NCBI RefSeq assembly: GCF_000234805.1
Contig: NC_016645.1
Span: 1,836,391 to 1,900,390 of the forward strand
Reading direction: 5' to 3'
Origin: Pyrobaculum ferrireducens
GTDB taxonomy: Archaea > Thermoproteota > Thermoprotei > Thermoproteales > Thermoproteaceae
DNA: 64,000 nucleotides
Positions 14,975 to 62,038 of this stretch are shown here, in pieces (position 1 is the stretch's first letter; each line of letters begins with the position of its first letter). The notes under the pieces are model-generated. The model worked only from the letters and a program-made list of their open reading frames with translations, did no database searches and was not told the origin of the DNA. Both the position numbers and the translations under genes were made by a program.

Positions 14975-15095
14975 AGCAACAGGGCTTGTCTAGATAAATA
15001 TATATGGATCTCGTCAAGAGGCGAATTAGAATTTCTATCAATATATGTGAGTTAGATTCTGGAAAACAACCTCGACGCAATGCCGCTCCAGATCT

Positions 15096-15126
15096 GGTGT
15101 TAGCATTTTTAAAAATGCCTAACACC
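15096..15126. promoter_or_regulatory. 31-base palindrome centred on the moaD-moaE TATA box
   Basis: Left arm GGTGTTAGCATTTTT (15096-15110), right arm AAAAATGCCTAACACC (15111-15126). The arms are perfect reverse complements except for one extra base in the right arm. The centre TTTTTAAAAA is placed ~25 bases before GTG 15136, so it is probably the TATA box. A symmetric operator for a dimeric regulator, or a TATA usable both ways, are the two readings; I favour an operator. Confidence 0.6.
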
Positions 15127-15135
15127 TTCTATGCC

Positions 15136-15825
15136 GTGAAAATTCGTCTTAAGTACTTCTCAGCCCTAAGAGATGTAACTGGCAAAATTTCCGAAGAGTT
15201 AGACGTTCCGCCTGGCTACACATTAGGTCAGTTAATCAACTGGTTTTTTAATAAGTATCCAAAAGCTGAGGTTTTCAAAGAGGAGTTGCTGGTCTTGGTA
15301 AACGGACGGACACTCGACAACTTCTACGTATTGAGGGAGGGGGACGAGGTGGCGTTGATGCCACCTGTGAGTGGCGGCGGCGGTGTGGTTAGCCAACCTG
15401 TAGATTTAAACAGGGAGGTTGTTGACATAATTGAAAAGACTGCGCCGAGAGGCGGAGGGGGGGTGGTGATTTTCGTGGGTTATGTCAAGGGGAGGGTGGG
15501 CGACGCCACCGTAAATATATTGGAGTACGAGGCCTATGAGCCCCACGCTAGTCACAAAATAAGGGAGATTGAGGAGTGGGCTAGGAGTCAGGAGGGGGTG
15601 CTCGAGGCTAGAATTTACCATGTAGCTGGTTCGTTGAGGCCGGGCGACCACACGGTGTACGTCTTCGTGTCTGCGGTTAGTAGAGACGTCGCGTTTAAAA
15701 TAGCTAGAGAGGCGTTGGAGAGGGTAAAGCACGAGGTTCCGATTTTTAAACTCGAAAAGAGAAGCGATGGGGAGTACTGGGTGCTTGGCGACGGCAGACG
15801 CGTGCCTAGAAGTCCTCAATCTTAA
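15136..15825 (+). CDS. moaDE: MoaD-MoaE fusion (molybdopterin synthase, both subunits)
   Basis: 229 residues. Residues 1-81 are MoaD: KIRLKYFSALRDVTG, VNGRTL and the terminal MPPVSGG of the family (GGGG at 80-83). Residues ~88-225 are MoaE: VIFVGYVKGRVG, YEAYEPHA, HVAGSLRPGD and RVKHEVPIFKLEK with catalytic lysines near 198 and 205. MoaD needs a free C-terminal Gly-Gly to become a thiocarboxylate, so cleavage after residue 81 or so is predicted; JAMM-type cleavage of a SAMP1-MoaE fusion is known in Haloferax. GTG 15136 is chosen over ATG 15115 because the TATA box lies at 15107-15114. Confidence 0.93.
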   Translation: MKIRLKYFSALRDVTGKISEELDVPPGYTLGQLINWFFNKYPKAEVFKEELLVLVNGRTLDNFYVLREGDEVALMPPVSGGGGVVSQPVDLNREVVDIIEKTAPRGGGGVVIFVGYVKGRVGDATVNILEYEAYEPHASHKIREIEEWARSQEGVLEARIYHVAGSLRPGDHTVYVFVSAVSRDVAFKIAREALERVKHEVPIFKLEKRSDGEYWVLGDGRRVPRSPQS

Positions 15826-52729: not shown

Positions 52730-53512
52730 ATGTTGCTTAAAAACCGCGTCAGTATCGTGACAGCTGCCAGCAGAGGCATTGGGGCAGGCGTCGCAAGCGT
52801 TCTCGCGAGAGAGGGGTCGAATTTAGTAATCGCCGCGAGAAGTATCGGCAGACTAGAGGAGTTGGCAAAAAATTTGGAGAATCAATATGGAGTCTCTGTA
52901 GTACCTGTACAAGCCGACTTGACAATTAGAGAGGATATCAAAAAGATTGTAAACACCGCGATTCAAAACTTTGGCAAGGTAGACATATTGGTCTACAACA
53001 CTGGGCCGCCTAAGCCCGGCGCCTTTCTTGAGCTGACTGAGGAGGACTGGGACTACGGCGTAAGGCTTCTTTTAATGAGCGCCGTTTGGATAACCAGAGA
53101 CGTCCTGCCGTATATGATAGAGAGGGGGTGGGGGCGACTTATCTACATCACCTCCTCTACGCTTAAGCAACCTATCCCCACGCTTACGCTATCTAACGTT
53201 ATCAGAATTTCGCTGGCTGGCCTTATTAAGACACTGGCATACCAATATGGGAGGTACAATATCTTAGTTAATGGAATTATGCAGGGGTATATCGATACTG
53301 AGCGCGTGAGGGAGGTTGCTATGGCGAGGGCCCAGAGAGAGGGGCGGCGCGTTGAGGAGATACTGGGGGAGCTTGAGAAGGAGATCCCGCTTGGCCGGAT
53401 AGGAAAGCCGGAGGAAATAGGGGAGCTGGTCGCCTTTCTGGCCTCGGAAAAGGCTAATTACATTACGGGATCTCTTATTCTCATAGACGGTGGGAGGACG
53501 CTATGTATATAA
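52730..53512 (+). CDS. SDR-family oxidoreductase, non-canonical active site
   Basis: 260 residues, FabG-like fold: cofactor loop [41 protein letters not shown] and C-terminal [33 protein letters not shown]. The usual YxxxK of the catalytic tetrad aligns with SNVIR, so Tyr is Ser and Lys is Arg. Similar BKR-like variants without tetrad are known. Convergent with glyA, overlapping 12 bases. Confidence 0.85.
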
Positions 53513-54793
53513 ATTAAGTGAACCAAGGAATTTATCTACGAGCTCCTTATCAATCTTAAAGCCGTATTTTATCTCTAAATACATCTTCCTGAACTCAACA
53601 ACGTCGCGCCTAACCGCCTCAGTATCCTCGCCTTTGATTACCCTGGCGATGAATCTAGCTATTTCTCGCATCTCGGAACGCCCCATGCCGAAGCGCGTCA
53701 TCTCCTGCACCCCGATTCTAATGCCGCTGGGTTTCAACACGCTTTTATCCCACGGCAACGCGTTTTTATTAACGATAATGTTCGCCTCCTCAAGCCTTAG
53801 AGCGATTTTATCTCCTCCGCCATATTTAGAAACATCGACAGCGACTTGATGCGTCTTTGTGAAGCCCTGGCGCTCGGCGACAGGCGTTATGCCTTCCTCA
53901 GCCAAGGCCTCCGCCAAGGCTCTGGCATTTTCTCTAATTCTATACGCGTACTCCGCGCCGAACAGCTCCATCTCCACCAGAGTTATGTAAGTCGCGGCGT
54001 AGCGATGAAGGTGGTAATTAGACGTAAAGACGGGGAACACCGCCCTTTGAATTGAGCTGTTTACCTCATCATCTGAAACCGTCGCGATAAGCCCGCCTTG
54101 GGGACCTGGAAACGTCTTGTGAGTAGACGAAGTAATTACGTGGGCGCCCTCCCTTAGAGGATTTGGGAAGACACCGCCTATAATTAGACCCAAGACGTGG
54201 GCCGAGTCGTGGAGTACATAGGCGCCGACTGTTTTTGCGATTTCTGCAATTTCTTTCACGGGGTGTGGAAAGAGGTATAGAGACGCCCCTGTGATTATGA
54301 GTTTTGGCTTCTTCTCTTCAATAACTTTGCGGGCGCCGTCGACGTCTATGTTAAAATTGTCTAGATCCCACGGCAACTCGACAGCCTTTATCCTCAATGC
54401 CTTAAGCCCCCCTACGTTGTTGTGGCTTATATGTCCGCCGTATTTAACAGGTAGCGAGGCGACGGTGCCGCTCTCGGGAACTAGCGCATAGTAAGTGGCC
54501 AGATTTGCGACAGTGCCCGAGACGGGTCTCACATCTACGAACTTAGCCCCCAAGACGTTTGCAAAACGTCTAGAGAGGGCGTCTTCCAATGCGTCGACGT
54601 ATTTAGTGCCTTGGTAATACCTGCTGCCTACGGTGCCCTCGGCGTATCTCCCCGCTAGATCATTTAAATAGACTAGTTCAGCTAGGGGAGACATTACGTT
54701 TTCGCTTGCTATTAAGTTTATGGTCTCCCTCCTCCTCCACATGTTGTGCGTCAACGTTATGTTTAGCACCTCTTCAAGATCTCGCGGGAGCAT
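53501..54793 (-). CDS. glyA: Serine hydroxymethyltransferase
   Basis: 430 residues, PLP enzyme. [76 protein letters not shown] with the PLP lysine, and [17 protein letters not shown]-type end are intact. Converts serine and a pterin C1 carrier to glycine. Divergent gap to moaC-like gene is 40 bases downstream of that gene's stop. Confidence 0.96.
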
Positions 54794-54833: not shown

Positions 54834-55565
54834 CTACTCTAGACGGAGCAACTTGATGTGTGTATTTGGATATTGACCACTGTCGTCTTTTTCATACTTC
54901 TTCGCCATGTCCCATATCGTGAGGAGGGCCACGCCGGTTGCAAACAACGCCTCAGGCGCGGGCGTGAAGTCCCGCGCCTTTATAGACACGCTCACTTCGA
55001 CGCTCTCTCTGACGTCTATATCTATCTTGAGATATTGTATAGAGGGACAGGGCCCTCCTATAAGTTCGCACAGTCTTTTGGCGTTGAGAGCCGCCGCAGT
55101 CTGCGCGGCGTAGATGGGGTGGCCCTTCTCCACGGGGCCCTTCACCACGTTGTAGTTCTTCATTTTCATCACCCCGTAGGCAGAGGCCGTTAAACCCCCT
55201 TCTCTCACAAGGGCCGTCTCTGTAAGTGCCGCTTCGCTCAGCGCTTGCGCCAAGTTTTTTAGCTTTATCTCTACTGCCAAGTCCTCTATCTTCACAGCCC
55301 CCGACCCGATTAAGCCTACCAGGGCGCCAAAGAGGACGTCCATCTCGACGCCTGTCTGCCACTCAGTAAACCCCTCTACGTATAGCCTACCGTCTCTACA
55401 CCACGCCGACGCTGTGAGGGGGAGGGGGTGTAAAAACGGGAGGTATCTACTAGCCACAACGGCGGCTCTCACCGCGGCGGCTGTGTTGCATATCTGCACT
55501 GAGGCGCTTGCGGAAGCTCTTGCATATCTATAGACGTCTGGTTTTTTAGAAACGTCAACAATCAT
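54834..55565 (-). CDS. moaC: Tandem MoaC-like protein (two degenerate complementary domains)
   Basis: 243 residues from ATG 55565 (ATGA overlap with the upstream gene decides the start). Family MoaC is ~160 residues; here two MoaC-like halves are fused. First half keeps [14 protein letters not shown] (His46) and TGVEMD (Glu74) but loses KGDV and DMCK. Second half keeps the KGPVEKG equivalent (Lys147), [15 protein letters not shown] and [10 protein letters not shown] (Asp219, Lys222) plus IKLL, but lost HPL and GVEME. Because MoaC active sites form at a dimer interface, one complete site per fused pair is likely. Makes cyclic pyranopterin monophosphate with MoaA. Confidence 0.85.
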
Positions 55566-55900
55566 TGAAAACACCTTTCTGCATCGTCATACAGTTTTTT
55601 CAACTCTGCTGGCGTCGTCCTACGCCTCTCGGCTCTCTGCAGTAGGATTTTAGCGGCCAGCAACCTAGCGTTTTTCTCATCAAGCTCTTTTAGAAGCTGG
55701 GATACCAACTCCTCACAGCTATCCACAGGCGCATCGATATACTTTTCGAAAAGCTTCGCCTTTTTTATCTCCACCTCTATCCACGTATAATCTGCCTGCG
55801 GCATTGGCCACCTATGGCCGCATTTCTTACACACATATTCGTTGGTGGGGAGCAACATCACGTCTTTAGAGCCGCATTTGGGACAAGACACGGAGAACAC
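55562..55900 (-). CDS. Zinc-ribbon protein upstream of moaC
   Basis: 112 residues. N-terminal [27 protein letters not shown] is a TFIIB/TFIIS-like C4 ribbon; the rest is helical, [38 protein letters not shown]. Overlaps moaC by four bases, so co-translated. Possible nucleic-acid binder; function unknown. Confidence 0.7.
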
Positions 55901-60710: not shown

Positions 60711-61121
60711 GTGGTTGTTAAGATAAAGATGCGCATATGGATAGACAAAGACGGACAGGAGATAATGGGGCCCGGTATATACAACATTCTTAAAGCTCTG
60801 GAGGAGACAGGCTCCATAGCCTCAGCCGCTAGGAGGCTCGGCTACTCCTACAAGTTTATCTGGACCTACATCAAGAAGCTTGAGGAGGCCCTAGGCGTCC
60901 CCCTTGTGGAGTCGAGGCGGGGGGGCAAAGAGAGGGGCGTGTCGGAGCTCACAGAAGTGGGCAAGCTACTCCTGAGCTACTACGAAGCTATGAGCAAGGA
61001 GGCCGAGCAGGTAGTGGCGACTTGGGAAAGGCGGTTCTCGGAGCTATTGTCTAATCTTGAGCAATACGCTACTAAGCCCAGTAGAGACGAGGAGGAGATC
61101 CCATACTACGAGGAGGAGTAG
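60711..61121 (+). CDS. ModE N-terminal-type HTH regulator
   Basis: 136 residues. IKMRIWIDKDGQEIMGPGIYNILKALEETGSIASAARRLGYSYKFIWTYIKKLEEALGVPLVESRRGGKERGVSELTEVGKLLLSYY is the LysR-like winged HTH of ModE; no MOP molybdate-binding domain follows, only an acidic tail. Next to moaA and likely a Mo/W-linked regulator. GTG start with TATA-like ctattttaac (60683-60692). 3' end overlaps moaA by 16 bases. Confidence 0.8.
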   Translation: MVVKIKMRIWIDKDGQEIMGPGIYNILKALEETGSIASAARRLGYSYKFIWTYIKKLEEALGVPLVESRRGGKERGVSELTEVGKLLLSYYEAMSKEAEQVVATWERRFSELLSNLEQYATKPSRDEEEIPYYEEE

Positions 61122-62038
61122 AGCTTGAATTTGGGCTCTCTCTTTGCAAGCGCTTGGCGTACGGCGTAAACCAAGCCTTCGACGTCGCGCGTCTTTATAT
61201 ATGGCAACAGATCGACGGCTGGTTCAGCGTATATACACGTCTTTAACTTGCCGTCGCTTGTCAACCTCATAGTAGTGCACCCGCTACAGAAAGTGGGGTT
61301 ATTGAAGTTCTTAATTAACTCTATGGTCACCCCGGCCACGACGTATAGAGGTCTATTATGGAGTTCTCTCCTCATTCCAACAGGCCTACCTCCCAGCTCG
61401 TTAATGATAGATACCACCGTCTCTACGGGCTCGTAGTAATTGTCGAAGATCTTGACACCTGATCCGTTTGGCATTAGTTCAATAAATTGGAGAGAGGCCC
61501 CAAGCGACGCGGCAAGTCTAATTAGACCCTTTACGCTTTCTCTATCTGTATTTACTCCGCGCATCACCACTGCATTTAGCTTAAGCAAAATACCCCTGTT
61601 TCTAGTCTCGACAAGACCTCTTAAAACCTCGCGAAAAGCACTGGGCGGCACGCCGGCGATTTTTGAGTATTTCTCAGGATCTGCGACATGCACCGACACA
61701 TTGATTCTCCTCAGCCCCGCCGCCTGTAACTTATCAATCCACCTTCTCAACAAGTAGCCATTTGTAGTCAACGTAACCACCGCGCCGCTCTTAGCAATAT
61801 TTGAAATTACTAGATCTATATCACTTCTCAGAAGAGGCTCGCCGCCGGTGATCTTGAAGTCGGAGACCCCCAGCGATTTAAACACCGACGTAACAAAACC
61901 ATAGTCCTCAGCCGTTAAGCCTCTACCTTGGCGCCTCAACTGACCCTCAAAGTGGCAAAAGATACAGTTATAGTTACATTCGTCATTAACCACGTATCTA
62001 AGCTTCTGGAAAGGTCTGCCATATCTATCAAAAAGCAC
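61106..62038 (-). CDS. moaA: GTP 3',8-cyclase MoaA
   Basis: 310 residues. DECNYNCIFC is the radical-SAM CX3CX2C; FKITGGEPLLRSDI, LTTNGYLL, RINVSVHVADPEKYSKI and FCSGCTTMRLTSDGKLKTCIY contains the C-terminal second cluster. First step of molybdopterin synthesis, paired functionally with the MoaC-like gene at 54.8 kb. TATA-like ttaaatac at 62060-62067, ~24 bases upstream. Confidence 0.95.
   Translation of the reverse strand: MLFDRYGRPFQKLRYVVNDECNYNCIFCHFEGQLRRQGRGLTAEDYGFVTSVFKSLGVSDFKITGGEPLLRSDIDLVISNIAKSGAVVTLTTNGYLLRRWIDKLQAAGLRRINVSVHVADPEKYSKIAGVPPSAFREVLRGLVETRNRGILLKLNAVVMRGVNTDRESVKGLIRLAASLGASLQFIELMPNGSGVKIFDNYYEPVETVVSIINELGGRPVGMRRELHNRPLYVVAGVTIELIKNFNNPTFCSGCTTMRLTSDGKLKTCIYAEPAVDLLPYIKTRDVEGLVYAVRQALAKREPKFKLYSSS

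Follow-up and report, generated by a model that had tools for sequence, protein, structure and literature searches.

The locus described here raises the question of whether two copies of MoaC joined in one protein can still work as a cyclic pyranopterin monophosphate (cPMP) synthase, and how many active sites such a protein would have. The window, that is the whole stretch of 64,000 nucleotides that was analysed, comes from Pyrobaculum ferrireducens, whose genome is complete in a single contig of 2,467,972 bases and has Pyrobaculum oguniense TE7 and Pyrobaculum sp. WP30 as its nearest named relatives. The gene lies on the minus strand at 54837..55565, starts with an ATG at 55565, ends with a stop codon at 54834-54836 and encodes 243 amino acids. 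Its start codon overlaps the stop codon of the upstream open reading frame (ATGA). This upstream frame (55562-55900, minus strand, 112 amino acids) encodes a TFIIB-like zinc ribbon (PF08271) and is retained at the start of the fused moaC across the Pyrobaculum-type relatives examined. On the 3' side the gene is followed by glyA (53501-54793, minus strand). Farther upstream, on the same strand, are open reading frames that read as a type 2 isopentenyl-diphosphate isomerase and the ribosomal protein L2. In the Pyrobaculum-type relatives examined, the gene order around the fused moaC is conserved.

An earlier note on this DNA had described the protein as a double MoaC with its active-site residues divided between two degenerate copies. 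The presence of two copies was borne out by the profile searches. The Pfam model PF01967 matched the whole protein in two stretches with 71.2 bits (cut-off 27), and when the halves were scored apart, the C-terminal half (C half) reached 49.3 bits and the N-terminal half (N half) 27.3 bits. A sequence search of the solved structures returned only MoaC, with the S. tokodaii protein 2ohd as the best match and the best stretches all in the C half. At the level of the fold, MoaC was recognised in both halves. The N half (residues 1-109, 55239..55565, minus strand) was modelled with a pLDDT of 93.2 and aligned to 2ohd with a Z score of 16.6 over 104 residues. It is devoid of helix alpha1 and of the K51 loop, and its helix alpha3 is shortened. 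The C half (residues 114-243, 54837..55226, minus strand) aligned to 2ohd and 2ekn with a Z score of 12.9 over 127 residues. The motifs were found where the earlier note had placed them, with HPLPLT and TGVEMD in the first half and EKG, WDMAKK and IKLL in the second. However, IKLL did not hold as a conserved C-terminal feature, since the neighbouring genus does not have it. It is the first half that retains the C-terminal lysine conserved in MoaC (E. coli K147), as residue K101.

The genome was then searched for a second MoaC. A genome-wide Pfam search matched MoaC in one place only, and a profile built from 22 single-domain MoaC proteins of the Thermoprotei, run at E<=10, found only the two halves of this open reading frame. 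By both searches, a normal MoaC is absent elsewhere in the genome. The partner enzyme of MoaC, the GTP 3',8-cyclase MoaA, is encoded in the window at 61106..62038 on the minus strand (PF06463, 85.3 bits). A ModE-like DNA-binding open reading frame (60711-61121, plus strand) is convergent with moaA; in the sister genus (g2) it lies between moaA and the fused moaC. The later steps of the pathway are represented by MoaD and MoaE, which are joined in one open reading frame of 273 amino acids at 15004..15825 on the plus strand (PF02391, 87.3 bits; the MoaD part was read from the sequence). A 2024 survey gives a MoaD-MoaE fusion for 18 of 35 Thermoproteales and remarks that the C-terminus of MoaD should need freeing (PMC11237513). 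Several molybdopterin (Moco) oxidoreductases are encoded elsewhere in the same genome. In g2 the fused moaC stands beside the ModE-like regulator and moaA. The fused gene also adjoins moaA in a genome from another family (G053), as does the single moaC of genome G019. This shared neighbourhood indicates that the fused gene occupies the place of the ordinary moaC.

The active-site residues were followed in an alignment of the halves with 26 single MoaC proteins; these include that of E. coli, whose numbering is used for the conserved positions. The counts below refer to positions that are invariant in the single proteins. The same fusion was found in 36 further proteins, giving 37 in total from eight genera, and 36 N halves and 37 C halves could be scored. 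All 36 N halves carry K21, R26, H77, T109, G110, E112, M113 and K147, and none of them has K51, D128 or M129. All 37 C halves carry K51, G52, K67, D128 and K131; K21, E112 and K147 occur in none of them and R26 in 5%. In the window protein, K21 and R26 correspond to K8 and R13 of the N half (55527..55544, minus strand, as are all segments given here), conserved in 36/36 N halves. H77-P78 corresponds to H46-P47 (55425..55430), the histidine being present in 36/36. The segment T109-E114 is TGVEMD at T71-D76 (55338..55355), with E112 in 36/36. K147 and the conserved lysine following it are K101 and K103 (55257..55265), again in 36/36. In the C half, K147-G148 of the window protein corresponds to K51-G52 of E. 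coli (55122..55127), a pair found in 37/37 C halves with the lysine in 0/36 N halves. W218-K222, WDMAK, corresponds to Y127-K131 (54900..54914), with D128 and K131 in 37/37 C halves and D128 in 0/36 N halves. An EKxxxGQYP segment typical of archaeal MoaC aligns at 54867..54893. Numbered along the window protein, the positions invariant in all 37 fused chains are L45, H46, P47, T71, G72, E74, M75, D76, L78, V98, K101 and K103 in the first part and G131, K147, G148, K163, W218, D219, K222, E225, K226, G230, Y232 and P233 in the second. E114, which is invariant in single MoaC proteins, is an aspartate in 36/36 N halves (D76 of the window protein, 55338-55340) and a glutamate in 92% of the C halves.

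The set of conserved charged residues is thus complete across both halves, with K21, R26, K51, H77, E112, D128, K131 and K147 present and E114 replaced by Asp. No single unit of about 150 residues holds all catalytic residues, since the N halves are without K51 and D128 and the C halves without E112 and K147. The claim of the earlier note that each half lacks what the other retains held for K51, D128, E112 and K147, with no exception in the 36 further fused proteins. As a strictly mutual loss it went too far: the E114 position is kept in the C half as well, and the longer fused forms also have H77 there, while their N half retains a lysine at K131. Chance can be dismissed as the cause of the split because the same split recurs in the 36 further proteins. 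However, the fusion probably arose only once, so that the many species with the split are not independent trials. A column-wise test of whether positions lost in one half tend to be spared in the other gave P = 0.09, which is only suggestive and was not taken as proof.

Whether the retained residues could form one pocket was examined with published contacts, from which the pocket residues were assigned to chains. In the MoaC2 protein of Mtb, GTP is contacted by three residues of chain A (K62, D137 and K140) and by one of chain B (H88). The T. thermophilus complex agrees with this, and helix alpha3 lies at the dimer interface (PMC3602415). By alignment these four residues correspond to K51, D128, K131 and H77 of E. 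coli. The published division between chains is the same as the division between halves, with K51, D128 and K131 in the C half and H77 in the N half. Four residues would be split correctly by chance in 1 of 8 cases, so that this agreement is a modest test when taken alone. The geometry of alpha3 adds to it. In the model of the C half, the positions of E112, D128 and K131 (residues 203, 219 and 222) lie on one unbroken helix spanning residues 203-224. E112 is 16-19 residues away from D128 and K131, which by an estimate of the helix length at 1.5 A per residue amounts to about 24-28 A. At this distance along one helix, E112 and D128/K131 cannot share a pocket within one domain, and a pocket that uses both ends of alpha3 must draw them from two domains. 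We infer from the published chain contacts and the helix length that the retained residues of the two halves converge on one pocket. By their conservation, E112, R26 and K147 are expected to line the same pocket.

The two halves of such a site could come from one chain or from two. In the second case each N half would find its partner C half in a neighbouring chain, in a domain-swapped or ring-like arrangement. The residue partition predicts the same for both cases, and MoaC does have interfaces both within and between dimers (PMC3602415). However, the AlphaFold2 model of the whole chain, based on the alignment of 37 sequences, had a mean pLDDT of 95.8 and a pTM of 0.94, which makes the relative placement of the two halves within a single chain a confident feature of the model. 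YkoF, a tandem ferredoxin-like protein, aligned over both halves (Z 7.3, residues 13-243); this fits a side-by-side packing of the halves without proving it. In addition, the linkers of the Pyrobaculum proteins are short. We therefore regard pairing between chains as unlikely and favour the pairing of the two halves within one chain.

Do the residues kept in this protein still serve catalysis? The fused protein could be a MoaC-derived pseudoenzyme or have another role, with cPMP being made otherwise or not at all. Both halves are degenerate, and the NCBIfam equivalog models TIGR00581/PRK12343 recognise the protein below their cut-offs (65.7 vs 141.5 and 94.5 vs 171 bits); for this reason these archaea may be recorded, wrongly, as having no moaC in surveys of the pathway. 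This explanation is difficult to reconcile with a genome that has moaA, MoaD-MoaE and the Moco oxidoreductases and no other MoaC, and with the finding that at least one of the two halves retains each invariant charged MoaC residue (for E114, as Asp). Selection also speaks against it. Compared with the nearest relative (G009), dN/dS (NG86) came to about 0.07 in the N half, 0.18 in the C half and 0.12 over the whole gene; in the comparison with a second genome (G005), where dS is near saturation, the corresponding values were about 0.06, 0.15 and 0.1. The low value in each half indicates that both halves are maintained by purifying selection. We consider a pseudoenzyme very improbable. The best reading of the fused protein is that of a working cPMP synthase, an activity that we infer from these data.

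The distribution of the fusion was followed among the relatives. In the organism's own family (f1), 18 of 19 genomes have the fused moaC, and the lone exception is an incomplete genome. In a related family, f3, which is apparently made up of Vulcanisaeta/Caldivirga-type organisms, the fused form is longer, with about 325 residues, and both Pfam domains are strong in most genera. One genome from another family, the above-mentioned G053, also has a fused MoaC. The remaining MoaC-bearing genomes, in the class and in a sample of 398 genomes of the phylum (290 with a MoaC match), have a single-domain MoaC, with four exceptions. These four genomes, listed with more than one MoaC match and lying outside the fused group, have separate copies or fragments and no intact double frame; no further self-fusion was found among the 398 genomes outside the fused group.

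Frameshifts do occur in a few relatives (G015, G034 and G039), as would be expected if the division were due to alignment noise or to a sequencing or assembly artefact in one genome. In G015, a frameshift between the two halves breaks the fused moaC (L078, on a contig of 1,841,542 bases of an otherwise complete genome); it may be a sequencing error, a private loss or a case of recoding. The frame is open in 37 proteins from eight genera, several of which come from finished, single-contig genomes, and identical residues are lost every time. With these comparative data the probability of an artefact is close to nil and this explanation was rejected.

Decay is more advanced in the short forms, whose N half no longer has helix alpha1 with the K51 loop or the end of alpha3 and whose C half is without His77. 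Most f3 genera have long forms in which Leu replaces K51, Asn replaces D128 and Ala takes the place of E112 in the C half, while this half still retains its His77. The extra losses in the short forms hit the side that is predicted to be dispensable if each chain is a pseudo-dimer. The f3 proteins (L024-L040) have a Cys-rich insert in the N half directly past helix alpha3, at the lost half-site. Genus g8 has C-x3-C and a third Cys, g5 has HCVCGPNGDC and g7 has YCLCSGGKC; the insert possibly represents a metal site or disulphides.

In a maximum-likelihood tree, the N halves formed one clade (support 100/100) and the C halves another (87/77), the C halves being located close to the single MoaC proteins of the Thermoprotei. 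When the trait columns were removed, this changed little (N clade 100/100, C clade 87/69). Since the N halves and the C halves each form their own clade with or without these columns, a single duplication and fusion is favoured and probably lies behind the Thermoproteota cases. G053 is placed outside the order and G019, with its single moaC, within it, so that an early origin with losses and a transfer are both possible.

Taken together, these results support the reading of the earlier note, as there is no other MoaC and the split between the halves matches the published chain contacts and the helix geometry. The fused MoaC is very probably a cPMP synthase in the form of a covalent pseudo-dimer, each chain having a single composite site; three chains would probably assemble into a trimer with three sites. 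According to this model, an ancestral moaC would have been duplicated in tandem and then fused. The halves of each chain would pack like the two subunits of a MoaC dimer, creating two potential interface pockets. In the pocket that would have been retained, the N half would supply H77, E112, D114, R26 and K147 and the C half K51, D128 and K131, whereas the mirror pocket would have decayed. The chain would then be an asymmetric, covalently linked pseudo-dimer with a single active site. A set of three such chains would rebuild the MoaC hexamer, probably with three sites in place of six, and the fused protein would be the sole cPMP synthase of the organism. Three observations weigh against this model: the Asp at E114 in every N half beside the Glu of most C halves, the frameshift in the gene of G015, and the scores below the equivalog cut-offs. 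There is a small chance that the decayed mirror pocket has taken on a new use, for instance in docking MoaA, in regulation or in binding a metal; the fused protein would then be a MoaC with distinct catalytic and non-catalytic faces. The Cys-rich insert of the f3 proteins sits at the lost half-site after alpha3.

The fused MoaC would represent a natural experiment: an enzyme that had been symmetric, with sites between its subunits, was fused and then lost its redundant half-sites. A stepwise route from a symmetric to an asymmetric enzyme can be followed in Pyrobaculum and its relatives, where three stages are found in living organisms: the single gene, the long fused form with milder decay and the short fused form with heavy decay. 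This graded series of living intermediates is the best feature of the finding. Mutations could be placed on one side of the pocket at a time within a single chain, something a homo-hexamer does not allow, and the protein offers a test of whether MoaC requires all six sites.

Ordinary MoaC (PF01967; E. coli 1ekr/4pya, S. tokodaii 2ohd, T. thermophilus 3jqm) has the same fold as each half, and the fused protein also shares with it the set of conserved residues over the whole chain, the pathway context and, in relatives, the synteny with moaA. Ordinary MoaC is a single domain of about 150 residues with all catalytic residues in each chain, and its hexamer has six equivalent sites at the interfaces, whereas in the fused protein two domains are joined and the residues divided. 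Self-fusion of MoaC in archaea is already catalogued as cluster 625.1, said to have occurred on multiple occasions with frameshifts as a possible cause (mSystems 2024, PMC11237513). Going by the excerpted parts of this survey, the cluster probably equals or includes the set described here and the fusion alone is reported, without a division of the active site; the survey describes multiple occasions, whereas the Thermoproteota cases look like one origin. In the open literature searched, no report of a divided MoaC active site was found. The principle is already known from other enzymes. The double-length tyrosyl-tRNA synthetase of trypanosomatids (PMC8319005) is likewise a pseudo-dimer and a precedent for it, but in that enzyme one half carries the catalytic residues and the other recognises the tRNA, whereas in the fused MoaC a single pocket is split. 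The monomeric dUTPase of herpesviruses (PMC8961515) is likewise an oligomeric enzyme that became double in length with a single site after gene duplication; it differs in having another fold and in that what had been a homotrimer became a monomer in which a motif is displaced.
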